Positions 111-40,515 of a stretch of 41,136 bases of DNA are shown piece after piece; within the stretch, counting starts at the first letter, position 1, and each line of letters begins with the position of its first letter. The position numbers and the translations under genes are program-made. Under the pieces are notes generated by a model. It ran no database searches, was not told where the DNA came from, and saw nothing but the letters and a program-made list of their open reading frames with translations. Source of the stretch: Scenedesmus sp. ARA3 (taxonomy: Eukaryota; Chlorophyta; Chlorophyceae; Sphaeropleales; Scenedesmaceae); the NCBI GenBank assembly GCA_004335835.1, contig RWJK01001589.1, forward strand, positions 32,894 through 74,029, read 5' to 3'.

Positions 111-386
111 GCCGTGCCGCCCAACGAGCGCCGCAAGAAGATCATCAAGTGGGCCATCGGAGGTGCAGCAGGCATTGGCATCGTGGCGGGCGTGGCCGCA
201 GCGCTGACTTTCGGTGACCTGGCATCCACAATGGCAAACATGCCGGTGGGCGATGCCATGGCTGGCATTGGGGGCGACCTGGGCACCTTTTTTGAGGGGC
301 TTGGAGGTGCCATGGACTGCTGCGGCGGCAATTGTGACTGCTGCGGGGACTGCGGGGATGCCTGCAACGTGTGCGTGACCTGCTGA
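111..386 (+). CDS. C-terminal exon of an unidentified membrane protein with a Cys-rich tail (partial)
   Basis: The exon is taken from after a CAG acceptor at 108-110 and runs open to TGA at 384-386; the gene begins outside the window. The 91 encoded residues start with a basic stretch (NERRKKIIK), followed by one hydrophobic, Gly/Ala-rich segment of about 22 residues that looks like a membrane helix. A Gly/Met-rich linker and a tail with ten cysteines in the last 24 residues follow, including two CC pairs and CxxCC/CxxC spacings. An in-frame ATG at 30 would extend the reading upstream, but the sequence there has no protein character and ends in a good acceptor, so it is read as intron. The tail could bind metal, be acylated or form disulfides; no family was recognised. 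The region around the stop codon is duplicated 98 bp downstream. Confidence 0.5.
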   Translation, partial: AVPPNERRKKIIKWAIGGAAGIGIVAGVAAALTFGDLASTMANMPVGDAMAGIGGDLGTFFEGLGGAMDCCGGNCDCCGDCGDACNVCVTC

Positions 387-510
387 GGTGGTTGGGAGTG
401 TTAGGGCGTGACGAAAGGCTATGGAGCTGGTATGCATGCTGCTTTGGGCAGTGCTTGCGCATGCTACGTGTGCGTGACCTGCTGAGCTGGTCGGGGGTGC
501 TATGGCGTGC
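364..510 (+). repeat. 98-bp tandem duplication spanning a stop codon
   Basis: The segment ACGTGTGCGTGACCTGCTGA around the stop codon of the first gene (367-386) recurs at 465-484, 98 bp downstream. About 25 further bases of flank remain similar. The second copy would again encode VCVTC followed by a stop. It lies in the putative 3' UTR and is the first of the window's echo duplications. Confidence 0.8.
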
Positions 511-954
511 TTGCTGGTGGTCGGTTGGTGGGCAGTGGGCGATGGTGTGGCTGCTGAGGCTTCAAAGCTGGCATGCTTTGCCTGTGTCATGCAAGTATGG
601 AGCTCTTGATTTAATTTGTGGCATTATCATGCAGTGGGTTGTACCTTGGGGCGTGCTTGGTGCTTCTGCTGTGTGAGGGTGCCTTGGGTGGCAGTGCCTT
701 CATGCATGTGCACAATGTGTACAAGTGGAGGGACTCTGGAGGTCAGCAGAAAGGGGTTCTATTGTTTGTGGTTGCAGCGGCATGCAGCCTGCGTTCGGGT
801 TCCGTTTTGTTGCAACCGGGTTTCTGATGTGGCGGAGTTGTTGCTGCAAGCAAGCTGGGCTGGCATGGAATGCTCTGTCGCAGGACTTCTCAGTTGCAGG
901 ACTGGGTGCTGCATGAGCAGCTGCCAGCATGTCGGATGTGTCTTCTTGCTGAGT

Positions 955-1048
955 TGTAGGGTTGCTGCATCTTGCAGCAGACTTGTGTGTAGGGCTGCTG
1001 CACCTTGCAGCAGACTGCAGCCTTGTAGGGCTGCTGCATCTTGCAGTA
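955..1048. repeat. Three-copy minisatellite, about 33-36 bp period
   Basis: Copies begin at 955, 988 and 1024. Each carries TGTAGGG(T/C)TGCTGCA followed by (T/C)CTTGCAG, and the last copy is truncated. It lies in the gene-free region and has no evident function. Confidence 0.8.
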
Positions 1049-2431
1049 TTCGGGAAACCAGAGCTAGGCGGAGGTGGCTCAGGTTGCACGCCAGCTGCCA
1101 GGATGCACGGGATTGCCTCAGTGTCTGCCAACCCTGCAGCTTGGTTGATTTGGACATGCCGCACAGTGCCGCAAGGGGAATGGGAGTTTGAGTTGCTTGG
1201 ATCAGCATCCCCTGTCGCAAGGCACAGCTGTGAAAGCATGGGTATAGCAGCTGCGGCTGAGGATGCAGAGGTGGTGGTGCGGAGGATGGCAACTGATGAC
1301 TGGGCAACCATCTGAAGTACTGCCTGGTTTGTTTGTGGTGGAGCAGCACTTGTTGGACCTGCTCGTGCAAGGATTGGCAGGTGGACTGTTTTCTAAGTAA
1401 GCCAAAGAGGAAGTGCAGGTGATTGCTGATTACCTGTGTCTGCAGAGATGTGTTTGCTGCTGCCCTTGCAATGCTGCACGCAATGTGCCTGGGTGTGATT
1501 GCAGCCGCAGGTGGGCAGCATGTGGCCAGGCAAGCCCTGGCAGCAGCATTATCTGTGCGAGGCTTGCTAGGGATGATGGCAGCAGGCGTTACTTTGTGGC
1601 TTTGCTGATATGTTGACTACGCTCGTTGTAGGAGCTTGCCATCATCATCGTTCAAATCGAGCATGCACGTATCCGTCTGTACATGGAATGGTGTTTGGCA
1701 GTACCATGGTTCATGTGCATGCTGGCTACGGGTGTCTATTGGCAGGTGCACCAGGCAGAAGTGAGCCATGTCTTGCATGACTTTGGCTGCATTTGTGAAA
1801 GCCACATCAGCGGTCGGCTGCATCCATGGGGTGCACTCTGCCAGTGCTGCTGAGCTTGCTGTTGAGGCTTTCAAGGGGTCTGATGCAGGTGCTATCACTT
1901 GCAGGATCGTGGTGCGCCTGGCGGCAATGGTGCACTCCTGCAGCTGACAGAGCGTTGCTCCGTGCTTTCCGCAGGACGCAGAGTTTATGGCAACTTGTTT
2001 TGTGCATCGTCAGCGGCTGCCTTAACACCCCACATGACATACCTGGGTGCATACATAGGCGTGAGTGCTGCGTATCACACACAATGTGCACGGACTGTGT
2101 TGAGTTTCGCATGCTGCTGCCTAGTACGAAACGTGCTTAGCAGGCTGCAGGTGCCGCTTGACATGCACGGTTTCCAGATGCAACATGAGGATTAGGGTGG
2201 GGGGTACTTGTTTGTCGGCTGTGACTGCCATATGGATGCGCACTCGAACTGAAACAGGCATGTGTCTGCTGCCTGGCAGCCTGCTTGATGCATGTGCCGA
2301 TTGTTGCCTTGGGCGGGCGCTACTAGCCACACGATGTTGGTGCTGGATGCCCTGCACATCCTTGCGATAACCTCTACACACAGTTGTTGCTTGAGCCATG
2401 CATGCATGTACACTGTCTTGTGCGAGCCGTG

Positions 2432-2467
2432 CATGCATGTGTAGCATGGGCATGCTACACATGCATG
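2432..2467. repeat. Perfect 17-bp inverted repeat with 2-nt spacer
   Basis: CATGCATGTGTAGCATG at 2432-2448 and its exact reverse complement at 2451-2467 are separated by GG. Pairing extends outward with one bulged base. It could form a hairpin in RNA or a cruciform in DNA. Confidence 0.9.
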
Positions 2468-3156
2468 GCACACTACAATTTCAGCTGCATGCAAGGTATG
2501 TGAGTTGTGTCTGCTTGCTTGTCGTGGTGTTGCTGTTGGCGACTGGAACAGCCATGTAGCATTGTATCCCTCATCTGCTTCTTATAGTAGCTGATGCGGA
2601 TGACCTTGCCTGCACAGCACAGCACGTTGAAGACATTGCATAGCCTGTTTTGCATGCAGCCTGCGTCAGCTGCATGGTGTGCATCTTTTGTTTTGCAGCT
2701 CTGTGGCGGCGCAGTATGAGGCGATTGAGTGGTGCGGCTGCATGCATTACTCAAGGAGCCTCATAAGCTGACTAGCTGGCTCGTGGTGTGCGGCGCTGGC
2801 AGCTGCATTTGTCTGACTGCAGAGGGGGCAATAGTAATGACCACTCTGCTGTTCATGTGCTGTGGAAGAGGGCTGTTTATTCATTGCGGTCAGTGGCCGC
2901 TAACGGAATGGACAAGCTGGTAACACGGTATCACACTGATGTTGGGGTTGTTGCGTTTTGCTGTGAGTTATGCGTGCAATATTGCCAGGGGGATTGTGGT
3001 GGCGTGATGCGGCTCATGTGGTGGCGTGACTCATGCCATCTGCAAGTCACCAAGCGGCTGTGCATGTTATTCAAGGCTTGTGCAGGCGCTGTTTGGTGTG
3101 CCCATGGTGGTATCATGAAGGACATCGTTTGGTGTTTCCAGCCCAGAGCAGCACAG

Positions 3157-3241
3157 CAGCATTGCTTGAAGGTGCGCAGCTGTGCATGACCAGCGTCCTT
3201 TGGGATCCTGGCTTCGTCTAGAATTTGTCATTTTACAGCAT
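3157..3241 (+). repeat. Dispersed repeat, copy 1
   Basis: About 85 bp starting CAGCATTGCTTGAAGGTGCG align without large gaps to 17021-17105, just downstream of the Myb gene's stop codon. I estimate roughly 80% identity by eye. No coding capacity or terminal repeats were seen; it may be a fragment of a mobile element. Confidence 0.75.
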
Positions 3242-3868
3242 AGGGTGGTGTGATGTACACATGTGTGCAGGTGCAGGTGACGGCACTTCAGCAGCACATT
3301 GATTGTACTGGCACCTTTGCCGTGGAACCCATCCAGTTGCTACACCAAAACTGCATGCTTGTCACTGTTGCTTCGTTTCAACTTGAAGCAACGATTAAGG
3401 AGGTTAGTTGGTTTTGCGTCGCATCATTCATCAGTTAATGAATGACTGCTGCAGTCTGGCTGTCTTACTAGCAGTGGATTGTTGTCGTGGAGGCTGTGCC
3501 ACCAAAACGTTTGGCTGACATGCTGCCCACTGTCATGCTCTTGTGAGCCCACTTGGTCCTGTTTTGGCACTGAAACGCTGTGCAATGTGCACCGCCAACT
3601 CTTACTACTGCAATTACTACTGCAACTCTTGATACCAACCAGGATCATGGCACTACGCAATGGTACTGTTACTCAGGGTGTTACGTCTGGTGTGTTAGGT
3701 CACACTGTGACATTTGCAGTTGCCCATGGCTCATCCCCACATCTAAGCGCACGCAACGACTATTGAAATACCTGCCTTAGCCTTTTGCCGAAGCACACCA
3801 TAGCTGCAGGGCTCAGTAGGAGCTGCACCACCTTCCCACCTTTCCACACCCTCCAGGCAACTCAGAAA

Positions 3869-6800
3869 ATGAAGGCCCTAATTCTTGTTGGTGGATATGG
3901 AACACGCCTGAGGCCACTCACGGTATTCATAAAGCTAGGCGCACGCAGCAGCACCCGGCACCCTTACTAGCCAGGCGTGGCACTCAACGAACGCCTATCT
4001 GCTTGCAGCTGACCGTTCCTAAGCCTTTGGTGGACTTTTGCAACAAACCAATGATATGCCACCAAATAGAGGTGGGGTTGCAGGATTGATTCGGCAAGGT
4101 GCCTACGCCTAACGTCCGCGTAGTGGCTCCCTATGCTGCAGCCTATGCCAGCCTCATTGAACATATTGCAAACGTTTATTTTCCTCGTACGCACCTGCCT
4201 CGCTGTGCGATACGGGTGCTGTACCAACCTCACTCTGCAACCCCCACCTCAACCCCCTTGCTGCTGCTTTGCTGGCAGGCGCTCAAGGCAGCTGGTGTGA
4301 CAGAGGTCATCCTGGCCATCAACTACCAGCCAGAGGTAAACCCAAAGTCTCAGCAATTGGTGTGCCTGCCCTCTCTGCCCTCATTTTGCTGCTAGCTCTG
4401 CACTCAAATGGTGCCACCTGGTGCCCATAGCAACTGCTTCTCCCAGCAAGGCACCATCGTCCTACGTTCAGCGCCTGTGGTTTGCCAGTAGCAGCATCAG
4501 ATGTTTCAGTCCTTTAAGCTGCCTAGTTGCCATTGCAGCCTCCAGCACAGCGCTTAGCGGCCAGCTGTGGTGGTGTTTTTGCTGAAGTTGGGGTTGTGGT
4601 TGCTTCCTGCAGGTTATGATGGGCTTCATTAAGGAGTGGGGAGAAAGGCTTGGAGTGAAAATCACCTGCTCACAGGTAAGTGCAAGCATGGTGATGGGCA
4701 GCATGCACCCAAACGTGCTTCCTGCAAGCACTTGCTGGCAGTACACAGCTGCCAGCCGCTTGCTGCCTCGCAACATGCCGTACGATGCCTTGTCCGGACA
4801 CCCAGGCCACACACCCCGCTCTTGAAGAGGTGCAAACACCCGCAGCTGCCAACACGCGCGCTGACAGCCCATCATTCAACTGTTGCTTGCAGGAAAATGA
4901 GCCGATGGGCACGGCCGGCCCGCTAGCGCTGGCGCGCCACCTGCTGGACGACGGCTCCGGCAAGCCCTTCTTCGTGCTCAACAGTGACGTGGTTTGCCCT
5001 TACCCCATGAAGGACATGCTGGACTTCCACCTGGCACGCGAGGCGGAGGCCACCATCCTGGTTACCAAGGTGCGGTGAAAAGCTAACGCAATGCTTGCTT
5101 CCTGCAGAGTGTGCTGCAGGGAATCTGGCACATTGCAGAGGCCTTGTATGCAGTAACAGCCAATGTAGTGGATGCAAGCGCCAATGATGGAGGCACATTG
5201 GTTGTGGCTGTGCATGTGACTGGAGGGGCGCAGCTGCTGGGGCGGCTCTATGCCATGTTACCGCTGTCCGCAGAACTGCTGCTGCCAGATGTGCCAGCTG
5301 TGCTCTGCTGCCAGTTGAACCAGCAACATAGTGTAGCTGCGTTGGAGGCCACAACGTCGTGGTTGTTTGTATGCAGGTGGATGATCCCTCCAAGTACGGC
5401 GTGGTTGTGATTGACGAGTACGGGCAGGTGCAGCGCTTTGTGGAGAAGCCCAAGGTGCGCCGCCATGTGCTGCTGTCGGCCGCAAGCAGGCGTGAGCCTA
5501 GCAGCAGCACCCGCTACAGCATGCACGAGCAACAGCAGCGTTACACTGGCGGCCCTTGTGTATCATGTGAAGCAGTAAGCAGCCACAGCATGAATATGTT
5601 GCATCAGTGCATGTGTTGTTGTGTTATCGCTTGCAGGAGTTTGTTGGCGACAAGATCAACGCAGGCATCTACGTGCTGGCGCCCTCAGTGCTGGACCGCA
5701 TCGAGCTGCGGCCGACCAGCATTGAGCGCGAGGTGTTCCCGCACGTGGCAGCAGACAAGAAGCTCTTCGCCTTCACGCTGCCAGGCTACTGGATGGTGAG
5801 AGCATGACCCATGGATGTTTGCTGTCTTTATATAAGAAGCAGACACATGGCCAGGTGCTATGTATGTGGAAAAGTAGCAAGACCGCAACTGCAGATGTGG
5901 CACTGTTTATGTAACTGCTGACACGGCTGTTCACTGTGAACACGCTGCCAATTTCGTGTGTAACTGCTTGTTTTTGTTCTGCAATTGTCCTGACGCACCG
6001 CTGCAACTGCTCCTGGCTGCTTGTTCTTGCTGCTAGGACGTGGGCCAGCCGAAGGACTACCTCAAGGGTGAGGCCTTTTCTTCTGGCAGTTTCCAGAGTA
6101 GTTGCAATAATCATGCGCAGCATGGATTGCAACAAGTGGGTGCCAATGCACACAAAGCTGGCTGCATTGCAGCTGCCTGGCAGCTGCAGGCCAAGGTTAG
6201 CACTGCATGTGCAGCTGCTGTAAGCCATTTGGATTGCTTCAGCCCACAGTCTAGGAGCACTGCCTGCACAGCAGCCAAACCTAAGCGCACGGCCCTGCAC
6301 ATCAGCGCCTCAACCATTTTCTGTGGCCACGCTGTGCAGGCCTGACGCTGCACTTGGACAACCTGCGCATCCACAGCCGTGCAGCACTGGCCAGCGGGCC
6401 GGACTACACGGGCAACGTGCTGGTGGCACCCAGCGCGACCATTGGCAGCGGCTGCCTCATAGGTGGGCATGCAGCAGAGCTGGTCACTGGAAAGTGCTGC
6501 TGTTTCTGCGGTGCTGCCCAAGCAGCTCTTATCTACTCTATCTATGTGTACAGCATTTGGAGATGTCGTGCCTGGAATGCTTGCAGCAGCTGATGTGTGC
6601 AGGAGGGCTGGCCGCTGCTTGGTGCGACTGTGTTTGCCCGTCTGCTGCCGCTGCTGCGTGCAGGCCCGGACGTCAGCATCGGCGAGGGTTGCGTGATCGG
6701 CAACGGCGTGCGCCTGAGCAACTGCGTGGTGATGAAGGGCGTGAAGGTCAAGGACCACAGCAAGGTGCGGCAACTGCTGTGGCGCCTGTTGGCTGCGTGC

Positions 6801-7433
6801 TGTACATGACTGTAGACAAAGGCCTGGTGGGAGGGGCTTGTGCACAGCATCTCAGAGGTCAATGACATTAGTTTTTTTGTGACAAGGAGGATGTATGATC
6901 AGCAGGAGGCTGCAGGTGCTGACTGCCGTGGCATATAAAGGTAGGTTGCAAGTACAAACGGTACTGGTTTGCTGCTGTTGCCATGTGGTGCTGCAGGTTG
7001 ACAAGAGCATCATCGGCTGGGACAGCACCATCGGGGCGTGGAGCCGGCTGGAGAACCACTGCGTGCTGGGAGAGGATGTGCAGGTCAAGGTGAGGGCCCT
7101 TTGCTGCTGTTTGAACAGTGCTAGTGTCGCAGCCTTGTTGGCATCCTGTTCTGCTGGAGCTCTGCTTCCAGACCATAGGACCCCGTAGGTGCCTCAAGTG
7201 GTGGGGTCTGCTGATTATTCTTGGGCATCTGACAAGCAGCACTAAAGGTTTGCAGTATATTATGGCACATTCATATTTTGTTTTCCCTGACTGTCCAGCA
7301 AGTGTGTGACTTGTGCTTGCTGCTGTCTCTGCTGTGGCACTGCCTGCAGGACGAGCTGTACCTAAACGGCGCGGTTGTGCTGCCGCACAAAGAGATCAAG
7401 GAGGCAGTGCCGTCACCAAATATCATCCTGTAG
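3869..7433 (+). CDS. GMPP: GDP-mannose pyrophosphorylase (mannose-1-phosphate guanylyltransferase)
   Basis: This enzyme makes GDP-mannose from mannose-1-phosphate and GTP in the cytosol, feeding ascorbate synthesis, protein glycosylation and wall polysaccharides. Exons: 3869-3922, 4009-4071, 4279-4335, 4613-4675, 4893-5069, 5377-5454, 5637-5795, 6037-6067, 6340-6462, 6664-6764, 6997-7089, 7350-7433. All introns are GT-AG and the frame closes to 360 aa, the usual length for the beta-type enzyme. The nucleotidyltransferase domain has GGYGTRLRP (8-16), LNSD (108-111), EKPK (161-164) and NAGIY (172-176). The C-terminal third is a left-handed beta-helix of hexapeptide repeats (about 255-340). Pro22 and Pro89, which are altered in the Arabidopsis vtc1-1 and cyt1-1 mutants, are conserved at identical numbering. 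ATG 3869 is chosen because the catalytic loop follows at once. No echo copies were seen in its introns. Confidence 0.97.
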
Positions 7434-7934
7434 ATATCGCAGTTTGAGCTATCGTATTTGCAGCTTTGCATATGTACTGGCTGTGTGGGAGCGTTTGGTG
7501 GAGCAGTGCTGCAGGAGTTTGCTGTTGGCAGCTGTTGCGTTTGCCAGTGACACACCAGCCGCAGAGGCTGGGTGGTACGGGTATGTTTTGGGACAGCAGA
7601 TAACGGGTAGTGCCTGCGAAAGCAATCAAGCTGTGTCTGGTCATGCGCAATCAACCGTGAGCACTTCGCTTGGCACTTCCTCCACAGACGGGGCAGCCAG
7701 GTTGCTTCCAAGAATTGCCGTTTGAAGTGAAAGAGTTCAAATAGAATATCTTACCAGGCCGAACGCATGGAGTTCGTGTAACTACTGTGTGACCGAAAGT
7801 ACCCAGTGAGTTATTCCTGAAGTCTTCTGGGCCTGGGCAATGCCGCGATCAAGTACGCCTTGATCGTGCATGTCAGTCAATAAGAAGGAATGTTTGTGTT
7901 AACTTTCTCTTGAGACGATGGCTGTAGAAGCCCA
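7434..7934. other. 3' UTR of GMPP and short spacer to next gene
   Basis: No coding signal is seen. The segment holds the likely GMPP 3' UTR with its TGTAA signal and then about 150 bp before the next start codon, so the two + strand genes are closely packed. Confidence 0.7.
7777..7781 (+). promoter_or_regulatory. TGTAA poly(A) signal for GMPP
   Basis: TGTAA is the usual chlorophycean polyadenylation signal. This one lies about 345 nt after the GMPP stop, and cleavage would be expected 10-20 nt beyond it. Confidence 0.65.
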
Positions 7935-9596: not shown

Positions 9597-9633
<37 letters not shown>

Positions 9634-16900: not shown

Positions 16901-16975
16901 TGGTACTGCAAATTACACCTTGCTGGCGCCGAGGGTGACACCTTGTTGGTACTGCCAGCCAACACCTGGCAAGTC

Positions 16976-16980
16976 TTACA
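16976..16980 (-). promoter_or_regulatory. TGTAA poly(A) signal for the Myb gene
   Basis: TTACA on the + strand reads TGTAA on the - strand, about 130 nt after the Myb gene's stop codon. A second candidate lies at 16913-16917. Confidence 0.5.
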
Positions 16981-17020
16981 CCGGCAGACTTGGGCGGGGG
17001 TCTACTGGTCCAGCATTGCT

Positions 17021-17105
17021 TGAAGGTGCGCAGCTATGCATTTACCACGGTCCCTTGGGACCCTGGAGCCATATAATTTCGTCCTTTTACACATGTGCTG
17101 GCGGC
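17021..17105 (+). repeat. Dispersed repeat, copy 2
   Basis: Partner of 3157-3241. It ends about 5 bp before the Myb gene's stop codon, so it would be transcribed antisense in that gene's 3' UTR. This copy contains a near-palindrome, GGTCCCTTGGGACC. Confidence 0.75.
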
Positions 17106-17110
17106 GCCGC

Positions 17111-20100
17111 TTACACCTTGATGTTTTCCTGCTCGATCAGCGCGCGCACGCGGTCCTTGAGCTGCCAGGGCAGCGTGAGGCCGCGCTCGGGCCTGCCCTG
17201 GATGATGGTGAGGCACAGGTTGCGGAACTTGTCCTTGCACTGCATGTTGTTCTTGCTGGCCAGGCGCGGGTCCTGCAGGAAAGACAGCAGTAACATAGCA
17301 CAGCACATCGTTAGGATAAGAACTCCTCAAAGCCAAAGTTTGACGCATGCACTATCCCATCATGTTGTTCTTGCTGGCCAGGCGCGGGTCCTGCAGGCAG
17401 TGCACAACAACAGCAGCCAAGAGGGTATCACCCGGAGCGAAGCATGTCATTCAGCGCCAGTGGACTGCGTGCAAGCGCTCATGTGCCGGTCAGGCATGGG
17501 TCTTGCAGGCAGCGCAACAACACGGCGGCCAGTACAACACAACAATGTCTCCCTGAAAAAACAAAACACTTTCTCCCTGGAACAAACACATACATACATG
17601 CTGCCTCACCATGACGCTGGTGCGCCACGCGGACATCCCGTACTGCTCCCCACTCCCGACCAGCAGACACAACACCCACACCTTGATAGATGAACAACCA
17701 CATAACACAAAACCAAACATGCAAGCCATCCACCCACCATGACAATCGTGCGCCACGCGGACAGCCCATACTTCTCCACGCCCTCGATCAGCGCCTCGAT
17801 CTGCTCCGTGGTCCAGCGCGTCTTGCGGGATGGCGTGCGCGCGCCGCCCGTGGCGCTGGTGTAGGCGGCGCTGGCCAGCGCCTCGTCCACCATGGGCACG
17901 TGCTCCAGGTCCTCGGGGATCTGTGCAGAGCGCATTAACACAGAGATATGTTGTTGAGGATGAGCGCAATGTGCATGTGGACACAGTCTGTTGTGAGAAC
18001 ACAGTTGTGGTGTGTTGTTGGTTAATCAGCGCCTCATCCACCATGGGCACGTGCTCCAGGTCCTCGGGTATCTGCGGAGTGCATGTGGATACAGTTTTGG
18101 TTGAGATCACGGTTGCAAGTTTTGTGTGAAGTGATTAGCGCCTCGTCCACCATGGGCACGTGCTCCAGGTCCTCGGGAATGTGCAGTGCATAAGTATCGA
18201 AGAGCAGATTCAGATTGTTGCTGACAAGATAGGTATGCAGGGTGCTTCATCCAGTCTGCAAAACATGCGGTTGAGTTGGTTCGCACCTTCTCCAGATCCT
18301 GCAGACTGCATGGATACCGTGCCTGAGTATAACGTTGCATGATGCAATGCCCCTACTGTCGAAACCAGCAGCGCATGCAGCTGCTGTTTGGGCTGCAGTG
18401 AAACCAGAGCGCTGCCGTACTATGATGTACCAGCTGCACGTGTGTCATGTGTGTATGTTTGAGACCAGTCAACTTTTGGGGCTCACCATAATGCGCAGGA
18501 TGATGGAGCTGTTGTTGCCCACGTTGTAATGGGCCAGCGGCATTGCACTGCCGTCGTCCTTGGCATCAGCCATCTCCTCGCCAGTCTCAGTGAGCAGCGT
18601 CTGCAGCAGCAGCAGCAGCAGCAGGTCACCATACGTTCAGCAACATGCAGCGCAGGACACGCGACAACAGTGGCTCCACAGGCATGATCAGCAACTGCTA
18701 CTGCACAATGCAGCAGCGCCACGCGCACGTGACCCAAACATGCTACAGCATGCGCACCGGCAGCAGTAGCAGCCCACCCTCCCTGTCAAGAGCACGCTGT
18801 TGCTGTGCATAGCCAGCTGCTACAACCTCGACCGCAATAATGTCAGCCGCCTCCCCTACCTGCAGTGCTGGCAGCAGCTTGTTGTGTGCCTGGTACTGGA
18901 ACAGGCGCTTCAGCATCATCACGTCACCATTCATGGGCACCTCCACAATGCCAGTCCTGCAGGAATGCGGCGACAGCAGCAGCAGCAGCACTGTCAGCTA
19001 CGGCAGCAGCAGCGGCACCACCGTCAGCTATGACAGCAGCAGATCCAGCTGCGGTAACAGTCGAGGCATGACCAATTGCTGTGCACTCCTGCCGCATGTG
19101 CGTGCTGTTGTCCCCTGCAGCAGACAACCATTTGAACGAAATGCAGCAACATACGGCATAGCCCGCTCGGTGTTACACGCTGCTGACCATACAGGTAGGC
19201 GCCACCAGCTGCCAAAAACATATCTGCTGATGCTAGAACCAAAACAGCCATAGCGGCCGCACCTCTCAGTGAGCTCGATGTCCTGCAGCTCAGGAGGCAG
19301 GTCCAGCGTGAACTGAATGGTGGCCAGGTGCCCGGAGCGCTTGGCTGCAGCCAGCGCCTGGTAGTCTGCCTTGCGCACGGTCTCCACCTGCTGCCGCTGC
19401 AGCTCGGCTGCGGTTGAGGATGTAAGCGACGGTGTGTTATGTGGAGCAGACCGCAGCAGCGCAGGCGGCAGCGACAGCAGCAGGGCGTCAGGCAGGGGGC
19501 GCCATCAGGCAGGGGGCCCAGGGGATGCTGAAAACAATCGGGATATCTGCAGCCCGGCGCACCCCTTCAGACAGCAACATAGATGAATCGAAAGGCCCTA
19601 CCATCTGCTCAGATGTGTGTGCTTCGAAGTAGCTGCCATACGGACCACACCAATACAGCCACTCATATCAAGCATGCTTGGCCTTCCCTGCAACCAGCCA
19701 TCAGCCCTCCTCCACATGCCTGCCTGCCTGCCAAGCAGCCAGTGCACCCCGTGTGTGTGTGTGGGTGTGTGAGCTCACATGAATAGTACTCGCCCAGCTC
19801 ATCTGGCGCGCCAACCTGGTGCGCAGCAAACATCTGCGCGTCGTGCGCCGCCTGCAGCTGCAGCGCGTCCGGCATCAGGTGCACCTGCTGCCCATTTGCG
19901 TCCACCAGCTGCTGCACAGTGAGCCCCTGGATGTTCAGGCTTCCTGCAACTGCAGCAGCCATGGCAGCCGGGTCCAGCTGCATACCTGCAGTCAGCGCTG
20001 CTGACACCGGCACTGCTCCTGCAAGCGCTGCAGCTGAGGCAGCATCCAGCTGCCCTCCAGCAGCTGCTGCAGCCAGCTGCGCCTGCACCGCCTGCAGCTG

Positions 20101-24800: not shown

Positions 24801-27112
24801 TTTGTGATTGCAGTCGATATACGTCGGTGTCTAGTCGTGAATCCTGGAGCCGTGGCGCCTCTGTGCTGTGTGTGCAGGTGGCGCGGCTGTGCTCTGCCAT
24901 GGTGAGCAGCAAGCCGCCGCCAGGCAAGGAGTTTGACCTGCAGCAGGAGCAGGTCTTCTTCATAAAGGTGGGAGCCGCCAAGCACATGCCTGTTGAATGT
25001 CACAGTTAATCCATGGATGGCTGTGGTCACAGTGCATACTGGGCACTCGGTCAGGTCCTGGATGCCCTTCAGGGCTGCTCCTTGCGGAACTATCTGCATG
25101 GCCTGGCACATGCTGTACATATGCATCCGTTGACCACAGTACTGTGGTCTAGTGCATTTGGAGCTCAGCAGCCAGCAGTAGCAGCGTAGCACGTAACAGA
25201 GACGCCCGGGCTGTACACCGTTGCCGTTTTTTCAGGCTTTGCAGCTGCTGCAGCTGTAAAGGGAAAGCTTGTGTCAGCTGACACACAGCGCTGCGGACGA
25301 CCTCAGGATTTGCTGGCACCCATTGGCTGTTGCAGGCACGCTGCATGCACGTCTGCCCCATGTGCATGTACTGGTTGCTTCAAGCCACTCTGCGTGTAGC
25401 TGAAGTAAGACGCTGCTGCTGCTGCTGCCGTGCTTGCAGGAGGGTGCCTTTGAGCTGCAGCTATTCGACCTGGCAGCGCAGCGCGCAGCAGACGCAGCGT
25501 TCGCAACAGCCGTAGCAGCCTCATCAGCCAGTGCAGCCGCCAATGAACTCACTCCAGCGCGCCGCAACCCTAGCGCTACCGGCGCTCCTGCTGCAGCTGC
25601 CAGCTGCGCTACAACACAGCCAGCTACTAGTGCTCTTCCAGATGGGGACGGCCTGCTCGACGCTGCTGCAGCAGCAGCAGGCTTTGCGGCAGCAGCTGGG
25701 CCAGGGCTGGGTGGCTTGCCTGCGCTGGCGCAGCACGGCGTGCTGGCTAGTGTGCGTGTGAAGGATGGGCGGGCGCTGGGCACGCTAGGCTACGAGCGGG
25801 AGCTGCGGCGGCAGCGGCACGCAAGTGTACCCAGGCGGGTGAGTGGAAGTGACAATGGGCGGCTGTGGTGTGGCTTTGTAAGATGCATTGCTATGAGCGG
25901 GAGCTGCGGCGGCAGCGGCACGCAAGTGTACCCAGGCGTGTAAGTGGAAGTGACAATGCGGCTGTGGTTTGGCTTTGCAAGATGCATTGCTATGAGCGGG
26001 AGCTGCGGCGGCAGTGCCACGCAAGTGTTCCCAGGCGGGTGAGTGGAAGTAACAATGGGCGGCTGTGGTGGATTTGTAAGATGCATCGCTCTAAGCGGGA
26101 GCTGCGGCGGCAGCGGCACGCGAGCGTTCCCGGGCAGGGGAGTGGCTTGGGTAGCTCCTGACATCGGGCATGGTGGTATCAGGATGGCAGGGTGTGGGTG
26201 TGATGCTTGGACACAAGTATGATGCCGCCGCTACTGCTGTTGCTGGTGCTGGTGATGATTGCTGCTGCTTGCTGCAGGCGGTGGCTATGCTGGGCCCTGG
26301 CAGTTGGTTTGGTGGTGGCAGCACCATCTACGGCTCGGGGCAGCTGCTGCTGGCGCTGCGCGTGGTAGCAAGAGGTGCTGGCCCAGCCTGCACGGCAGCT
26401 GATCCCCAGCTGCACGTAACAATGTACATTTTTGCCTGCTGTGAACACGGCTTAGTAGTTTGCAGTGTGGCGAACCAGCTGCACAGCAGTTTGTGGATGT
26501 GGGTGCCAGCTTGCTGTGCTGCTGTTGAGCCCAACCTGCAGCCTTAGCAGGGCATGAAAGCACGTGTGTGTAACTGCCTGCAGCTGATAGTATTCTCATT
26601 GTGCTGTGCTGTGCAGGCAGCGGCTGCGAGCTGATCCACCTGCCATTGGACGGCATCGCGCAGCAGGGAGGCGAGGGCCTCATTGGGTGAGGCGCTGATA
26701 CACGCTGCTGCAGCTACTGTCCACCAGATTTTGCACTGCGGTCACCACCAGCAGATGTTGCACATGCTCTGCACACTGCACACATCTTGGCCAGACAGCG
26801 TTTATATGCGCGTTTTGAGATTCGGTAGGCTATATCTGTGTCGATTCTTTGGCCGCTTTGTTGTGTGCGGGCCTATGGCTCCCACCTGCTTGAGCATGAG
26901 CTGCCTGCAGCACCGCTTTCTGTTTTTTGATTGCAGGCGGCTGCGTGATGATGCAGCGTTCAGCCTGACGTACCACCTGGGGCGCCTGGGGCTGCTGCCA
27001 CCTGGCGCCTCTGTAGGCCACCCTCAAGCCGCACTACTGTCGGCAGCAGCAGGAGCAGCACACACAGCAGCGCACACAGCAGCAGAGCTGTACGGACCGA
27101 CACATGGTCCAG

Positions 27113-27148
<36 letters not shown>

Positions 27149-31525: not shown

Positions 31526-34500
31526 ATGGCGCCCGTCGCAGAGAACGTGCAGAAGGTGCTCGAGTCAGTGAAGGAGAACAAGACCACGGTCGCAGCTGTG
31601 GGTCTGGGCGGTCTGGCAGTTGCAGGAGCAGCGCTTTACATCAGGCGTCGCCAGCTGACTCCCCCAGCAGTGGGCAAGTACCCAGTAGGGACTCTGCCAG
31701 CTGATGCATATGACGCCGTGATCGTGGGCGCTGGGCCTTCTGGATCGGTGTGCGCCTTCTATTCTGCCAAGGCTGGTGCCAAGGTGGCCCTGCTGGACAA
31801 GGCTACGTTCCCCAGGGGTGCGTTGATGTTAGCCTTAGTGCCCGCCAGCGCACCAGCAACGCAAATAGGACGCCACGCTCCATGAACGCAGCTGATTTAG
31901 TATATAGACACTTAGTTCAAGCAAATTGAATGATCAGCTGGGTCGTACGCAGTGTGTTCGCGGATGGGTGACTGACTGCTCTGACAGTTCCTACTGCTGG
32001 TGACTAGCAGACTGCTGTGCAGTTCATCTGTGCAACTGCAGCCGGCACTCTCAGCAGAGTTCTTGTTACAGGTATCTGTGCGTATTCTGACATCTTTCTT
32101 TGTGCTGCCCCTGCAGACAAGTACTGCGGTGATGCTGTGTGCACTCCTGCCATCAGGTGAGCTGCTGGCCAGCTTGCAAGAACACAGAAGTACAAGTGTG
32201 GCAGCAACTGCATCCTGCAACGGAACCAAGAGCAATGCAGAATGCAGCGTACTGCCGTGAAGGAGTAAGCCAGTACGTCTGGCGGCACCCCTGAAATCCT
32301 GCTTGAACCTGCTTTCTGCTCACACCTGGTGTTGCCTGGCGAACAGTCATGTGCAGCTGCAGTTGCTTGCTCAATGCTGTTGATAGGCGCATCTGCAAAT
32401 CAAACAGGCGCCTGACGGGCTTTCAGCCTGCACTCATTGCATGATGCTCACTGCATGATGCTCAAACGTGATCAGCGTCAGCAGTCGTTGCGCAAGGATA
32501 CGGAACACAGAGCAACTCTGCCTGCTCCACACTGTGACTGTGGAGACTCATTTCAACCCACGTACTGTACACACCTGCAGCTCAATCATGCTTTGCTGCT
32601 GCTGCTGCTGCTGCTGCTCTGACCAGGATCCTGGAGGACATGGGTGTGCTGAAGGAGCTGATGGACAACAACGAGGCACACTTTGCAGATGCAGGTGCGG
32701 CGCCACTGAAACTGTTGTTGGTACTTGCAGCTGATCGCGTCTATGCATGCGCGCTGCAGCTTAACTGCTGAGCTTTGCAGCTCAAGCATTGCAGCACAGG
32801 TCTACTTGCTGCAGGTGCAGCTGCGCAGCACATTCTGTGACTGCCGCGCTTGCAACTGCACAACAGCATCAGTAGGAGCAGCAGGCGCACACATCACTCT
32901 GCACAGGGCGCCAGCTGGCGAAAGTGTGCAACTAGGACACGCGCGATGAAAGGCAGCAGATGGGCAGACAAGCAGACGGACGGGCAGACAGACAGACAGA
33001 TAGACAGGCAGACAGACAGACAGACAGTCAGACAGGCGCTCATGCATGCCTCATAACGATGCAACCATCTGCAGGCGGCTTTGTGTCGCCCATGGGCATC
33101 AGCTACGTGGGCGCCAGCTAAGCAAAATGTTACAGTACTGCTCCCTTCTCACTAATCGTTTTGTCTGATCCCACTGTTGTCTGCAGGCGGCTTTGTGTCG
33201 CCCATGGGCATCAGCTATATGGGCGCCAGCAAGACCAACTGACGCTTTACAGAACTTGGTTTTGAAGCATTCGTGTGTTTTCATTGTTTGCCGCAGGCGG
33301 CTTTGTGTCGCCCATGGGCATCAGCTACGTGGGTGCCAGCAAGGAGAAGCTGGGCGAGGCTGCCTGCTGCGCGGTGAAGCGCATCAACCTGGACAACAGG
33401 ATCGCCAAGAAGGCCAAGCAGGCCGGCGCAGACCTCAAGGAGGGCTTCGAGGTGGGTTGTGTTATGCTACTTTGCACTGTTACATTGTTACAGCCAGATG
33501 TTGGCATGTCGCTCAGCAGCGGTGTTCAGTTTGCGTCCTGAAGTCAGGCACAGCATGCCGTCTCAGGAGCAACAGCATGCATGGCTGCTGCCTGCCATCC
33601 TCCGCATTGGTGCAAGCACACACAACCCAGCCAAACACCAGCAGCCTCACCACTCCTCCTGCTGTTCTTCGTGCTTCACCGCAGGTGACTGGCGCCACCT
33701 TTGACAAGGAGGCGGGCCTGTAAACAGTCATGCAACAGCAGCATCATCAGCAACATTGGTTCGACTCTGTGTCCTCTGTATCCTGCTGCAGGTGACTGGC
33801 GCCACTTTTGACAAGGAGGCGGGCCTGTGGACCGTCACCGCAGCCTCAGGCGCCACCGTGCGCGGCCGCATGCTGGTGTGCGCTGACGGCGCCACCAGCC
33901 AGCTGGCCACCAAGCTGGGCTACTGCACAGGTGGGCGGTGTGCAGTGTGCGATGAGATGGTGGTGGTGGTGTAGTGGCGGGCCCTGGGCGTGTGAGGGCG
34001 TGCTGGCTGGTTTGGCATGCTGCAGCTGCTGCCAGTTGTAAACAATTGCGCTGCTTTGCGTATTCTGTTCCATGCAAGCGCTGCTCTGTGCTGCAGCAGG
34101 TTGTATCAACGGCCCCAGCTGGGTGACACTTACCACTGTCGTTGCTGCTGCTGTGCTGCTGCTGCTGCTGCTGTGCGCAGAGGCTCCCCGTGGCGTGTGC
34201 AGCCGCGCCTTTGTTGAGGGCGGCACCCACAACGCCAACTTTGACGGCGTGTGCTTCTACCCCAAGTGGAGCCTGCCCGGCTACGCCGCGCTGTTCAAGT
34301 GAGGCACTGCTGCTGCTGCTGCTGCTATTATCAATTGCTGTTGTGCGCTCGGCTATGTGTGCTGATGCTGTTGCGTGCACACAGGCAGATGCTGTGCGGA
34401 CGCTTTGTTGCATGAGCAGCAGCAGCAGCAACCGCAGCAGTTGTTTGTTACTGTTGGTGTGCCCGCAGCTCGCCCAGCTTCACCTTGCACCTTGATTTTG

Positions 34501-36396
34501 TCCTGGCAGGCACCCCAATGACGAGCTCAATCACTGCTACTACCTCTTCCCCTGCCATCTTAGCGCGAGCAGCCCAGCAGCAGCTGTTGCTGGTATTGGC
34601 ACTTGCTGACAACACTTTCCTTGTCATTCTTCTCTTCCTGTCTGCGGTGTCCAGGCACCCCAACGACGAGCTCAACTACTGCTACTACCTCATCCCCTGC
34701 GGCAAGGCCGGCTACTGCGGCGACGTCACCGAGGCTGACCTGGCGCGCCTGCACAACGACGCCATCACCAAGGTGCGGATGAAGTGCTGTTTGTACAGTG
34801 AGATTCCAGCTGCGATGCTTCAATTGTGTTGCTTCCGGAGGTTGGTGGTTGTGGAGCTGTGCATGTCCCATCCAGCTGCTTGGCATGACAGTATGTCGAT
34901 TTTGAGATTGGTGCTGGGTGCTGATCGCTCGTTTCTCTTCCCTTGCAGGACCCCTTCATCAGCGCCGCGCTGGGCCCCAACGCCAAGCTGGAGCGCATGC
35001 GCGCCGCCAGCCTGCGCCTGGGCGGCCAGGGCCTGGCCACCACGCACGACGACCACCTCATGATCATCGGCGACGCTGCGGGGCACATCGACCCGCTCAC
35101 AGGTGCGGCAAGGACAAATGTTATGTCACAATTTGCTTTTGCATCAGGCCCAGCTGTTGTGATGACTACCTGATCATCAAAAACTACGCAGCAGGCAACA
35201 TCGACCCGCTCACAGGTGCCGCGGGGTGCCGAGGCACAGCGCATGTACTACAAGATACACCCCTAGCTGTTGCCGGATTTGCAGCATCTGCAAAGCTACA
35301 AGGGCCTTGCCGTCAGCTGCCCAGCTTGGCAGCATGCACCTGTGCTCCGGGTGGTCCCCTTTTACATGACATTTGATTGGCTGGGTGGGAGGTGCATGCT
35401 GTCAGCCTGGCTGATGCCTCTGCTGCTGCTGCTGCTGCTACATGTTTTCTTCCAATCTTTTCAGGCGAGGGCATCCACACTGCCATGATGGGCGGCCAGG
35501 CAGCAGCAGACACGCTGCTGGACATGCGCTCCACCGGCGACTTCAGCAAGGCCTCCACTGCAGTGTACCAGCGCCGCTGGATGGCCCAGTACGGCCACGA
35601 CTTCGGCCTCAGCACAAAGTTCGCGGAGCTCATCTACAGGTGGGTGCTGCGTTGTTTTTGTGTTGTTGTTTGTAAGCTTCATGTTGTTTCTGGGCACTGG
35701 TTTTGAGGAGGGGGAAGATGTGTGTGAGTTGCAGGCAGGTAATGCTGTCACGTTGCCATGTGACGCCTGCCGTGCAAGGGTACCCCATCATGGTAGATGC
35801 CACGGCCAGCAAAGTGCAGGTGGTGCCTTTGTGATGCATGTGACACTGTCATATGTGAAACACCCTCTGCAGGTACCCTGTCATCGTGGCTCCATTGCCA
35901 GCGAGGTGCACCCCATCACGTGCCTCCATATGTCATCACAAATGTAACACACTCCTCTAACACCATTACAACAACTTCATGCCGCAGGTACCCCATCATC
36001 ATGGACGCCATGGCCAGCGAGGTGCAGCGCAAGGGTGACGCTTTCATGTCCAAGTGGGCAGAGATCATGACCAACATGCAGCCCAAGACCTACTTCTTCA
36101 GGCCAGACGTGGCAGCGCAGGTGGGCAAGAACAGCTGTATATCCAGTAATTGAAGTCGCAGCAGCAGTTTGCTCAGCGGGCAACAGCCTGTCAGCCATCT
36201 GTGCAGAGACTCCAAAGGTTCTGACAGGCGGCAGTCTGCTGGCAGTTTTGGTCTGATGATCCATCATGTTACTGACTCCGCTTCTGCCGCTGCTGCTGTT
36301 TGATTCTGTGCGCTGCAGCTGGGCTTTGCCATTGTGCGTGAGGTGTTTGAGCAGAAGGTGCTGGGCAAGGCAGACAAGTACCAGCTCAAGGCATAA
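31526..36396 (+). CDS. Geranylgeranyl-reductase-family FAD-dependent oxidoreductase
   Basis: Exons: 31526-31817, 32117-32156, 32627-32694, 33297-33451, 33792-33930, 34181-34298, 34655-34772, 34949-35102, 35465-35639, 35988-36120, 36319-36396. Frame closes to 489 aa. The FAD dinucleotide motif VIVGAGPSGS is at 65-74, followed by DKATFPRDKYCGDAVCTPA (91-109), which matches the substrate-side KxCGDxV region of this family. The second FAD motif GDAAGHIDPLTGEGIHTAM is at 351-369. Such enzymes reduce isoprenoid chains; the exact substrate is not predictable here. It is not the canonical chlorophyll enzyme CHLP, which has KPCGGAIP at this site. A hydrophobic segment at about 23-38 followed by RRR suggests an N-terminal membrane anchor rather than a typical transit peptide. 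Five of its exon junctions have echo copies in adjacent introns. Confidence 0.93.
32964..33035 (+). repeat. GACA/CAGA microsatellite in an intron
   Basis: Imperfect (GACA)n tract, mostly CAGACAGA, in intron 3 of the flavoprotein gene and about 40 bp upstream of the first echo of exon 4. Confidence 0.9.
33075..33118 (+). repeat. Echo of flavoprotein exon 4 acceptor end, copy 1
   Basis: The first 44 nt of exon 4 (GFVSPMGISYVGAS) are repeated with one mismatch behind a CTGCAG acceptor. An in-frame TAA follows at once. The true exon starts at 33297; copies 1 and 2 are 112 bp apart. Confidence 0.95.
33187..33233 (+). repeat. Echo of flavoprotein exon 4 acceptor end, copy 2
   Basis: 47 nt with three mismatches lie behind CTGCAG and read GFVSPMGISYMGASK, followed by TN and a stop. 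It is 110 bp upstream of the true exon. Confidence 0.95.
33685..33720 (+). repeat. Echo of flavoprotein exon 5 acceptor end
   Basis: 36 nt (VTGATFDKEAGL) with one mismatch follow a CGCAG acceptor. The next codon, TGG in the true exon, is TAA here. It is 107 bp upstream of the true start at 33792. Confidence 0.95.
34510..34555 (+). repeat. Echo of flavoprotein exon 7 acceptor end
   Basis: 46 nt with four mismatches (HPNDELNHCYYLFPC) follow GGCAG. The frame continues to a stop near 34609 without a convincing donor. It is 145 bp upstream of the true start at 34655. Confidence 0.93.
35161..35214 (+). repeat. Echo of flavoprotein exon 8 donor end
   Basis: The segment reads DDYLIIKNYAAGNIDPLTG, against DDHLMIIGDAAGHIDPLTG at the exon end. 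The last 19 nt are identical and a GTGCCG donor follows. It lies 112 bp downstream of the true donor, the mirror arrangement of the acceptor echoes. Confidence 0.9.
35780..35817 (+). repeat. Echo of flavoprotein exon 10 acceptor end, copy 1
   Basis: TACCCCATCATGGTAGATGC and following bases resemble the start of exon 10 (YPIIMDAMASEVQ), here YPIMVDATASKVQ. The acceptor is weak (GCAAGG). Confidence 0.85.
35873..35910 (+). repeat. Echo of flavoprotein exon 10 acceptor end, copy 2
   Basis: A 38-nt copy with one deleted base and several substitutions lies behind a good CTGCAG acceptor. Spacings are 93 bp from copy 1 and 115 bp to the true exon at 35988. Confidence 0.88.
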
Positions 36397-37637
36397 ACCA
36401 TAAACCATGAGCCCTTGTCAGTCAGCTCAGGGCTTAGCGCTTTTGGCTCAAGCAGGTTGAGTCTACAGTTGCCTTTGCAGCAGCGAGTGGCTGCTGCTGG
36501 ATTGAGCGGGGCATTGCGCAGCAGCTTGCGGCGCTTGCATCATGTACAGGCTGCTGCAGTAGCAGCGAACACACGGGATGCAATGCAACAAGCTGCAGCT
36601 TGTGAGCAAGAGCACAACACAAAGCAGCGAGGCTTTGGTTTTCATGACATGCCATCTGTGCATGTGTGTTGCGAGAGCCTGCTAGGCTGTCAGTACTAGC
36701 CTACTGGCCAATCCAGCCTGCGTAGCAGTCACTGCTAGAATAGTATTCTGAGTGCTGTGTTATCTTTGTGGTGTGGTTTGAGTGGGACTGTGTGAGGAAG
36801 GAGCGAGGCTTGCAGCGCCTTGTGTGGCTTCAGGGACAGTCAATCTTTCTGTCAGCAGGCTGTTGTTAGCACGTTGTCAGGCAGTGTGTTGCTGCTGACA
36901 CGGTGTGCACAAGAGACCGAGTGATTCTCTTCTGGAAGTCCGTGTGTGAGTGCTCCCTCAGCAATCAGCAATGAGTCAACATGGCCGCATCACAGCACGT
37001 GCGACTGCAGCTGCAAAGCTGCAACACATTTACTGGGTATGCCTGAGCATGCCAGCATCGCTCGCTGTGCGCGCATGCTATGCTGCATGTCAGCACTTCA
37101 TGTCGAGAGAGGTCTGTTAGGGCAAGATATCGCCCTAGAGCAAGTCACTTGCCCCTCTTTCAGCTCACATATCATGACAGGTTAGTTCAAAATGGTTTGA
37201 CAGCAGCTCTGGTTCTAGCTGCTGCATGGATGCGGTGGCACATTGCTGATGCAATTCGCAGCATGTCATCACCTGTGTCTCTGTCACCAGCTGTCACGCA
37301 CTGAGGCTTGTGATGACAGCAGAAAATCCTACCCCACACGCGGTAACAGCAACGTTGCTCCTGCGCACTGTCAATATTTTCCCCGTGGTACTGCAATGGT
37401 CGGCCTTGACGGCGTAACTGGCCACTGTGCGGATGGTGCATCCTGTTGAGCAATCTGCTGCCGTACCCTTAAACCCTCGAGTATGCTGCCTGCTCTCAGT
37501 CCACATGCTGCAAGACAACCGAAGCTTTGAAAGTGTGCATAGTAAGGATGGCTTAGAGCTGTAATAGCACGTGGGCCTCCGCATGTAGTCAGCAGCTGTA
37601 GCATAATCGCAGTTACCTGCACGGGCTGCCTGACAGC
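36397..37637. other. Intergenic stretch without a recognised gene
   Basis: It contains the 3' UTR of the flavoprotein gene and the promoter/leader of the bestrophin gene. I saw no exon-like sequence, no TGTAA and no clear repeat. Confidence 0.6.
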
Positions 37638-40515
37638 ATGCAAACCACCTCGACGTACAGGACCAGAAACCATAATGTGCTTACATACAGTGCACGGCAA
37701 TTTGCTCGGCCCATGCAGGGCAGGGCACGGAGGCAGGTCATCGCAGCTGCACGGGACAGTGTTCAGCAGAACACAGGGCCTTTCCACGCAGGCCACGACA
37801 GCCATCCGACATACAGGGATATAGAAAAGGAGAGGGGCAGGCAGTTTCGGCGCTCGGTAAGGGCGTGGTACTGGTGGCAGTACAAGTCCAGCAGGCCGAG
37901 CAGCAGTGCGCACTGCATGCAGAGCACATCTGTATGCACAGCAGTAGAACGGCAGCAGCTGCAGCCTGGCCTCTGTGTCCTGCACATCAGCAGTTCCCTC
38001 AGCAAGTTCAAAGTACTATTGTTGTTTATTGCTCTTTCCCTTCAAAGCTCTGTTCGTAACTGTCATCTGCGTCACCATGTGACACACCACCACGCCTCAC
38101 TCCTGCTCAACGGCAGTCACACAACTCAGCACAACCTCACATCCCACTGTGTTCACACCATCCTTCTACGTCCTGCATGCAGCACTTTGACCATGACGAG
38201 TGGGCGCGCCACCGCTGCACCAACCGCTACTGGCGCCACCTCAAGACAGGCCTGCTCACCAGCCGCATTGTGAAGGGCCTTGCAGGACCACTCAACTACG
38301 TTGGCGCCATTGCCTTTGCAGTCAGCAGCTATGAGTGGGTGCTGGCACATGGCATGCTGCATGATGTGGGGCTGTGGCACTGGCCAAGCGTGTCAGTCAG
38401 CATTGTGGGCCCCTTCAGCCTGTCCACGTTTGCGCTGTCGCTGCTGCTGGTGTTCCGCACAAACGGCTCGTACCAGCGGTGAGCAGGAATTGCAGCTGTG
38501 AGTTTGAGTTCGTCCGAAAACTGCCAGCTTGAAGCAATGTGCAAACTATCTGCATGCAGACTTGCATCAAGGTGCTTGCAAGCGCAACATGCAGCGGCAG
38601 CAGCGACCTCACAATCAGCTGCATCACCGTTTTGGTTGCCAGCTGTGTAGCTCACACATATACTTTGGCAGCACTACCACAGCAGCACACAGCATGCGCT
38701 GCAATGCTAGACAAGCTTCGTGTTTGCAACACCTCCCTGCAGGTGGAACGAGGCGCGCCGCCTGTGGGGCCTGTGCACCAACCGCAGCCGTGATATCGCG
38801 CGCCAGGCGCTGCTGTGGATGCCGCCCGACAATGACGCCGCGCTGGCGGCTGCAGCGTGCCGCTGGGCTGCTGCGTTCCCGCTGGTGCTGATGTGCTCGC
38901 TGCGGGAGGACCACATCCTGGAGAAGGTGCTCCCGGTGAGTGGAGGAGGGGGGCGGGCCGTTGTGCAAAGTGTTACAGGGCTGTTGTGCATGCAGAAACA
39001 TGCTGCCAGCCCCTGGAGGAGGTGCTGCCGGTGAGGCCCGGGAGGCGGGGAGGCTGTTAGTTGAGGTTGTTGTGCAAGCTCGCAAGTTTCATGCAGATTA
39101 TGTGGCTGCAGGGACCAGTGCAGTGCAGTGCAGCCCCTGACTACTGGGCTGAGCCGTGTCACGACATGCTGGCCCAGCTGCAGCAGTGCAGAGGCAGCTC
39201 GGAGCAGGAGCAATACAGCGCACGGGTACCTGCCTAGGAACAGTGGTGACATATGAGCCAAGCTGCTGCTTGCTGTGCACTGCCCTGCAGGGTGTGCTGC
39301 TGCCGGAGGAGCTGGAGTTTGTGCTGCAGCAGCGCCACGCGGGCACTGCTGTGCTGCAGGCGCTGGGCGAGTGCGTGCAGGCGTCACACATGCAGCCCAT
39401 GCAGAAGATGCGGCTGGACGAGAACATCACAGTGATGCAGGTGAGGGGCTGAATAGCCGAGGATTGGTGGCGGCAGCGGCAGCAGCACCTGTATACATGT
39501 TACATTTGGAACACCAGACAACCTACAGCTGCACGTGTATTTTGACGTCATTACCAACGATGATGGTGCCGCACAGGGTGTGCCACCCCTCTCTTCAACC
39601 TGCCCTGCAACCCCCTCGCTTGCCTGCAGGATGTGATGGGCGGCTGCGAGCGCATCTTCCGCACGCCCATCCCGCTGTCGTACACGCGCCACACCAGCCG
39701 CTTCCTGGTGTGCTGGCTCACGCTGCTGCCCTTCTGCGTGGCAGACGCCTTCGGATGGCTCACAGTGCCCATCTCCATAGGGCTGGCCTTCTTCCTCTTT
39801 GGCATAGAGGTGCGGATTAGCTGCTGGCGTACACAACAAAAGCGAGCAGAGTGGTTGTGCTGGTTGGCTAGCAGCACCCTGCGCTCACAAAGGCAGTGGA
39901 GTGCCTCGCTTGGACTCTTCGATGACTGGGTGTGGGCAGCTAGCAGCAGCACATTTGGGACGCAGAGCACACATGCAGGCATGCCTTGTCAATTATGCTG
40001 CGGTGTCGCGCTGCACATCCGTGCCTGACTGCCCATCCCGCTATGCTTGCTTGCAGGAGATTGGCGTGCAGATTGAGGAGCCCTTCGGCATCCTGGCCCT
40101 GGAGGTCTTCTGCGACAACATCTGCAAGAACATCCAGCAGGCACAGGCAGCAGCAGCACCGCTGAAGCAGGCGGCACAAGGCCACCTGAGTGCAGCGCAA
40201 GTGCTGCTGCCGCTGCCGCTGCCAGCGGCAGCAGCTGGCATTGGCTTTGTTGCTGGGCACAGCTTTGGTAACCAAATGCAGCAGACCAGCAACGTGCTGG
40301 GTGCTGCTTCAAGCACTGCACATAGCAGCAGCAGCAGCAGTGACTATGGCAGCAGCGGCGAATATCTTATGCCCCCTGGCTTCCTGCACCTCCCACTGCC
40401 GGATGCAGCTGACACATGCAGCCGCATCACTGGCGCTGATGAGCAGGCGCTGCAGCTGTATGTTGGCAGCACAGTAGCAGCCCCTGACTTTGAAGACGAG
40501 GGCTTCACTATGTGA
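37638..40515 (+). CDS. Bestrophin-like anion channel
   Basis: Exons: 37638-37856, 38183-38478, 38743-38935, 39291-39440, 39630-39809, 40057-40515; frame closes to 498 aa. Residues 1-73 are basic and Ser/Thr/Arg-rich, like a plastid transit peptide. Family motifs follow: HFDHDEWARHR (74-84), membrane segments around 105-160, FRTNGSYQRWNEARRLWG (about 163-180), NRSRDIARQ, IPLSYTRHTSRFL with two membrane segments (about 300-345), and GIEEIGVQIEEPFGILAL. The last 115 residues are low-complexity Ala/Gln/Ser. Plant and algal members sit in thylakoid membranes and conduct chloride or bicarbonate; Chlamydomonas BST1-3 serve the carbon-concentrating mechanism. Which ion this one carries cannot be told from sequence. 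The exon 3 donor end has a short echo copy downstream. Confidence 0.94.
39013..39030 (+). repeat. Echo of bestrophin exon 3 donor end
   Basis: CTGGAGGAGGTGCTGCCG followed by GTGAGG matches the exon end CTGGAGAAGGTGCTCCCG plus GTGAGT (38918-38935) at 16 of 18 positions. It is 95 bp downstream, and the following intron sequence is also loosely similar. Confidence 0.85.

Follow-up and report, generated by a model that had tools for sequence, protein, structure and literature searches.

Why should an intron carry spare copies of the exon ends that border it? The question arises from a 41,136-nucleotide (nt) stretch of the green alga Scenedesmus sp. ARA3 (contig RWJK01001589.1, positions 32,894 to 74,029; here called the window), which belongs to an 87.27-Mb genome of 1567 contigs, has a GC content of 57%, and contains 48 N. 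Copies of 22 to 100 nt, mostly at spacings of 99 to 151 nt, lie beside its exon ends; we refer to them as echoes. Local tandem duplications, short and direct, abound in the sampled genome; they are mostly of 100 to 160 bp and in two to five copies, with a second class of about 220 to 260 bp. Wherever such a duplication spans a splice junction, the intron is left with an extra exon end, and the exon adjoining the coding body remains intact. The explanation that we favor, to which we give an even chance, is that local tandem duplication is frequent, that it is tolerated wherever the extra copy is spliced out, and that it is accompanied by gene conversion anchored on the exons.

Echoed junctions in the window

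The original prediction reported extra exon-end copies at ten junctions in four genes and at one stop codon. Matched by gene, nine junctions were clearly echoed (five of the 20 junctions of a flavoprotein gene, three in a Myb gene, and one in a cyclic-nucleotide gene), as was the stop-codon region, and the filtered repeats described below were absent at control distances. A further junction, donor end 38935 of a bestrophin gene, is borderline, since its possible echo (39008..39030, forward strand; spacing, 95 nt) scored 16.0, a value that the best of 200 shuffles also reached. Pfam confirmed Myb, cyclic-nucleotide (cNMP_binding), and bestrophin domains in the respective genes.

The flavoprotein gene (31526..36396; geranylgeranyl-reductase-like) comprises 11 exons separated by GT-AG introns and has a single open spliced frame of 489 amino acids; the gene and all of its echoes lie on the forward strand. 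Two acceptor-type echoes of the start of exon 33297-33451 were found at 33075..33118 (spacing, 222 nt; AG kept, then TAA) and at 33187..33233 (spacing, 110 nt; AG kept, TGA shortly after). The starts of exons 33792-33930 and 34655-34772 each have one (33685..33721 and 34510..34555; spacings, 107 and 145 nt, respectively), and the end of exon 34949-35102 has a donor-type echo with its GT kept (35161..35215; spacing, 113 nt). Exon 35988-36120 has two echoes of its start within 35780..35908, one 208 nt upstream and one, visible only in a gapped alignment, about 115 nt upstream.

The closest match of the flavoprotein, a relative that is full-length, 95% identical, and gapless, matches FAD_binding_3; the nearest named protein matches are from green algae. 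At all five echoed junctions, this relative agrees with the exon sequence, and it contains no echo segment. In our reading, the donor echo at 35161..35215 has lost the GD of a GDAAG stretch that the relative keeps. A CTG repeat in an intron of the gene (34136-34181) matches dozens of places in the genome, and trinucleotide runs are common in the window.

On the reverse strand, Myb exon 17738-17920 is echoed at both ends, once at donor 17738 (17607..17649; spacing, 128 nt) and twice at acceptor 17920 (18027..18184; spacings, 151 and 260 nt), while acceptor 17272 of Myb exon 17117-17272 has an echo with 37 identical nt (17361..17397; spacing, 118 nt). Three tandem copies of the donor end of the cyclic-nucleotide exon ending at 25838 lie at 25890..26145 on the forward strand (periods, 101/99/99). 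The intron part of the first copy is still alignable, and the array is young; the junction itself was present in our first gene model and absent from the retrained one. The stop-codon repeat consists of two forward-strand copies (363-410 and 462-509; spacing, 99 nt) across the stop codon and the following DNA. An open frame ends there and no splice junction is present; a splice site is thus not required for duplication. Outside confident exons, three copies of a unit of about 33 to 36 nt were seen at positions 954-1046.

Tandem duplication in the sampled genome

We sampled 24 stretches of the genome, of which two consisted entirely of N and were dropped; results refer to a first set of 207.8 kb or an enlarged set of 236.5 kb out of the 87-Mb genome. 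Gene models came from our own small hidden Markov model, trained first on the flavoprotein gene and later retrained, and some junctions are therefore false. Low-complexity exon ends were removed before counting, which left 158 of 224 acceptors and 158 of 223 donors in the first set and 366 predicted junctions (185 of 262 acceptors and 181 of 261 donors) in the enlarged set. Repeat counts were also complexity filtered; unfiltered, low-complexity matches were abundant at every distance.

Direct repeats at 40 to 400 nt numbered 78 in the first set, compared with none at 400 to 760, 1000 to 1360, or 3000 to 3360 nt. The enlarged set contained 154, versus none at 1000 to 1360 nt and two inverted repeats. 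These formed 72 clusters (304 per Mb), unevenly distributed among loci. In the first set, 40 of 63 clusters touched predicted exons, which made up 26% of the sequence. The copies were direct, adjacent, and arranged head to tail, as in local tandem duplication, which bears out the proposal that a segment crossing the junction had been duplicated in tandem.

Regarding unit size, the nearest copy of exon-touching pairs was 100 to 160 nt away in 40 of 62 cases and 220 to 260 nt away in 13, with two between 160 and 220 nt; non-exon pairs peaked at 60 to 80 and 90 to 130 nt. Periods were nearly constant in several arrays (112/110, 112/115/113/109, and 101/99/99). Among the 18 rows spaced by more than 180 nt, 11 held a middle copy (P ≤ 0.043; two of these were not above the best null score), and none was found in the other seven, including five units of 230 to 251 nt. 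At three junctions in sampled stretches outside the window (denoted by L-numbers), the best match of the intron flank lay roughly two exon-part spacings away (L005, 113/235 nt; L008, 124/228 nt; L023, 115/233 nt), as expected if dimers were duplicated later. A genome search, which skips simple repeats, found the two arrays tested, including that at 25890..26145, only at their own loci, and we rejected a dispersed element on this ground. Together with the excess of direct over inverted repeats and the near-constant periods, this result supports the local nature of the process.

We then sought copies of exon-end 40-mers on the intron side and on the wrong side of each junction. Intron-side copies were found at 47 of the 366 junctions, versus six on the wrong side (acceptors, 25 of 185 upstream versus three downstream; donors, 22 of 181 downstream versus three upstream), and at none of 316 random loci in the first set. 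The pattern therefore recurs beyond the window. The regular polarity of the copies, which had been noted as expected under tandem duplication, was observed but carries no extra weight, because tandem duplication across a junction forces the spare copy to the intron side. Among 1500 intron 40-mers, 27 had an upstream copy that was non-exonic and 34 one that was exonic (L007 excluded). A non-exonic array in L007 (4667-5005) has a unit of about 33 to 35 nt, unlike the units of 100 to 160 nt.

The stop-codon copies and the non-exonic arrays partly share the spacing of the junction echoes; duplication also takes place away from splice junctions. No echoes were found at 63 junctions in five 10-kb stretches that contain predicted genes (L009, L011, L014, L015, and L025), while L016 had them at nine of 18, and either the process or the gene calls vary across the genome. 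Echoes were also present in a DNA methylase gene (L027) and in a ResB-like gene (L008), where we read four spare copies of one exon start. A young example of the same process is the array at L016:7302-7856 (period, 155), where identity is still about 96% in the intron part as well as in the exon part. Two WD40-like exon-end copies at L016:6665-6969 differ by a one-base indel, possibly a homopolymer sequencing error.

Divergence of exon parts and intron flanks

Exon parts had been described as more alike than intronic flanks, and this held. Ungapped identity between echo and exon was 0.82 to 0.93 across the 30 exonic nt nearest the junction. Past the splice consensus in the intron, it fell toward the level of unrelated junctions (about 0.26 to 0.32), being 0.52 to 0.56 at 6 to 15 nt and then 0.26 to 0.39 for acceptors, and 0.43 at 5 to 9 nt and then 0.19 to 0.36 for donors. 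Copies of intron-side 40-mers occurred at 10 of the 366 junctions (five at the same spacing), versus 47 for the exon side. The further claim that most flanks no longer align proved half right. It applies to the adjacent 25 nt compared without gaps, where 34 of 47 flanks were not above the 95th percentile of the control, but gapped alignment of whole spacers detected remnant homology in 30 of the 47 pairs (P ≤ 0.05) and not in 17. Whole units were thus probably duplicated in most cases, and we dropped the idea, derived from a 40-nt global comparison, that the flanks were never duplicated.

What remains puzzling is that identity drops at the splice junction and that flank decay is unlinked to the divergence of the exon part. 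Synonymous divergence (Ks) was 0.216 in the 13 pairs with flank homology and 0.183 in the 34 pairs without it, i.e., not lower with homology. Three copies in L008 show one difference each in an exon part of about 30 nt, and their spacers are 70 to 82% alike in the aligned part, with four to six gaps; unrelated spacers were 71% alike. The step at the junction, the 47 versus 10 copies, the lack of a link with Ks, and the L008 copies support gene conversion. Spare copies would persist because splicing normally removes them, most of them probably not being translated. Less certainly, occasional conversion from the exon may keep the exonic part alike, while the intronic parts of both copies would drift until they are too different for conversion, which would create the step.

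Plain neutral decay is a serious competitor, although we consider it less probable. It assumes the same duplications and no conversion, with the exon held by selection, the echo drifting, and introns decaying fast through substitutions and indels. As had been claimed, many copies keep their splice dinucleotide (AG in 21 of 25 acceptors and GT in 15 of 22 donors); the total of 36 of 47 is about what is expected of a free copy at the observed Ks of 0.191 and nonsynonymous divergence (Ka) of 0.061. In-frame stops were at chance, occurring in 14 of 25 acceptor spacers versus an average of 13 for the two remaining frames. Copies not predicted as exons had 71 synonymous differences out of 142, not clearly above the neutral ceiling of 0.437 (P = 0.08), and rapid loss of intron alignability has been published (PMC8226300). 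However, simulated decay at a divergence of 0.2 left 13 to 26% of flanks unrecognized, or 49% at a very high indel rate, versus the 34 of 47 observed, and flank loss showed no link with Ks. The exon-part alignments contained only four gaps in 33 pairs, in a search that favors ungapped matches, which weakens fast indels as the sole cause of flank loss.

Several points weigh against conversion and the regular local process as we describe them. A conversion tract was never observed directly, and at about 45 nt such tracts would be very short. Echo pairs were detected through their exon part, which biases them toward conserved exon parts. At a synonymous divergence near 37%, 44.1% of intronic bases can be aligned between Chlamydomonas reinhardtii and C. 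incerta (PMC8226300); introns of green algae quickly become unalignable, and part of the step may therefore be plain decay. Ka/Ks was 0.32 (95% interval, 0.24 to 0.44). We would expect 0.5 if a constrained exon were paired with a free echo, and far less if both exons were constrained; the low value hints at some constraint or at truly coding copies. One L008 spacer pair scored 20.5, against a mean of −5.6 (standard deviation, 6.3) for unrelated spacers, and the periods of the Myb array are uneven (151/109). Given the fast decay of introns and the detection of pairs through the exon part, we hold conversion only slightly above neutral decay. More tentatively, and with considerable doubt, homogenization of the spare exonic parts might stop at the splice junction itself, e.g., through repair templated by spliced RNA or complementary DNA or through exon-anchored conversion, leaving fresh exon ends in ageing introns.

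It is unlikely that the copies are selected decoy or alternative exons, kept for splicing regulation or isoforms. Their splice sites scored on average 3.7 (acceptors) and 2.2 (donors; median, 4.6), weaker than real sites (5.4 and 5.3) but above background (0.6 and 0.8), so that, judging from these scores, echo sites likely compete with real ones. Ka/Ks below 0.5 also fits selection, and 17 of the 47 copies were called as exons by our gene finder, with 67 synonymous differences out of 110; these 17 were picked by coding likeness, however, and the excess is therefore partly circular. A xylose-isomerase-like gene (L024:4385-6750, reverse strand) has several junctions with open-frame spare exon ends called as exons, so that its predicted exons repeat protein segments. 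Pfam gave no family for the raw prediction, and the assignment rests on an alignment made with the repeats removed; in that form it aligns with solved xylose isomerases, without an insertion at either of the two echoed junctions covered by the query. Repeats inside the barrel would be expected to break it. Chance-level stops, the flavoprotein copy that lost GD, and the echo-free flavoprotein relative likewise speak against selection.

The poison-exon design was accordingly rejected, as was intron gain of the AGGT type, a relation to intron gain by tandem duplication having been suggested originally: flanking repeats scoring at least 18 were found in two of 351 introns, both CAG-rich, versus 19 of 1053 in the null set. 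With stops at chance, no AGGT signature beyond CAG repeats, and a forced polarity, neither idea is supported. An assembly artefact placing two divergent haplotypes end to end is the least probable reading, and we rejected it: alike exons beside unlike introns, and the 48 N, would suit it, but the flavoprotein gene is a single locus for which a genome search (40 of 82 candidates scored) returned no second haplotype, only the locus with its own echoes and, elsewhere, short matches that almost all involved CTG-repeat stretches of the query, and arrays reach three to five copies of fairly steady period, some with a stop or a broken motif.

Relation to known systems

If the sample is typical, about one in eight predicted junctions (47/366) has a spare exon end, usually with splice letters, 90 to 330 bases away. 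The genome would then be a natural experiment in the discrimination of true from spare sites by the splicing machinery, would steadily supply material from which new splice sites could arise, and would allow one to test whether exons are homogenized apart from introns. The 17 of 47 spare ends that our own gene finder mistook for exons are a warning for annotators. Words beginning with "intron" or "tandem" are absent from the main text of a comparative Sphaeropleales genome paper by term search (PMC12571836), and titles and abstract openings returned by searches of the open-license PubMed Central literature contained no report of such a pattern in a green alga or of such a density of junction-spanning duplications.

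Introners, as described in PMC9860276, resemble the echoes in changing introns en masse and in having green algae among their hosts. They differ in having genome-wide copies, some with target-site duplications of 3 to 9 bp, whereas the two arrays tested here had no copies elsewhere. Tandem exon duplication with mutually exclusive splicing, as reported for U2AF1 (PMC5224494), also yields adjacent homologous exon copies with splice sites; there, whole exons are used in isoforms, whereas the echoes are mostly partial exon ends with putative sites. Tandem genomic duplication is described as an accepted route of intron gain (PMC3443670), and in both processes a short tandem duplication within a gene supplies extra splice sites. 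Here, by contrast, the copies lie inside existing introns, and 351 introns showed no AGGT signature other than CAG repeats. The closest likeness is a single described case of duplication across an intron-exon boundary (PMC4974935), in which the tandem unit also spans an exon edge and splice signals are inherited. In that case, one event produced a new intron and an added exon piece, whereas here there are 72 clusters in 236.5 kb, and the flavoprotein, judged by its 95% identical relative, is unchanged.

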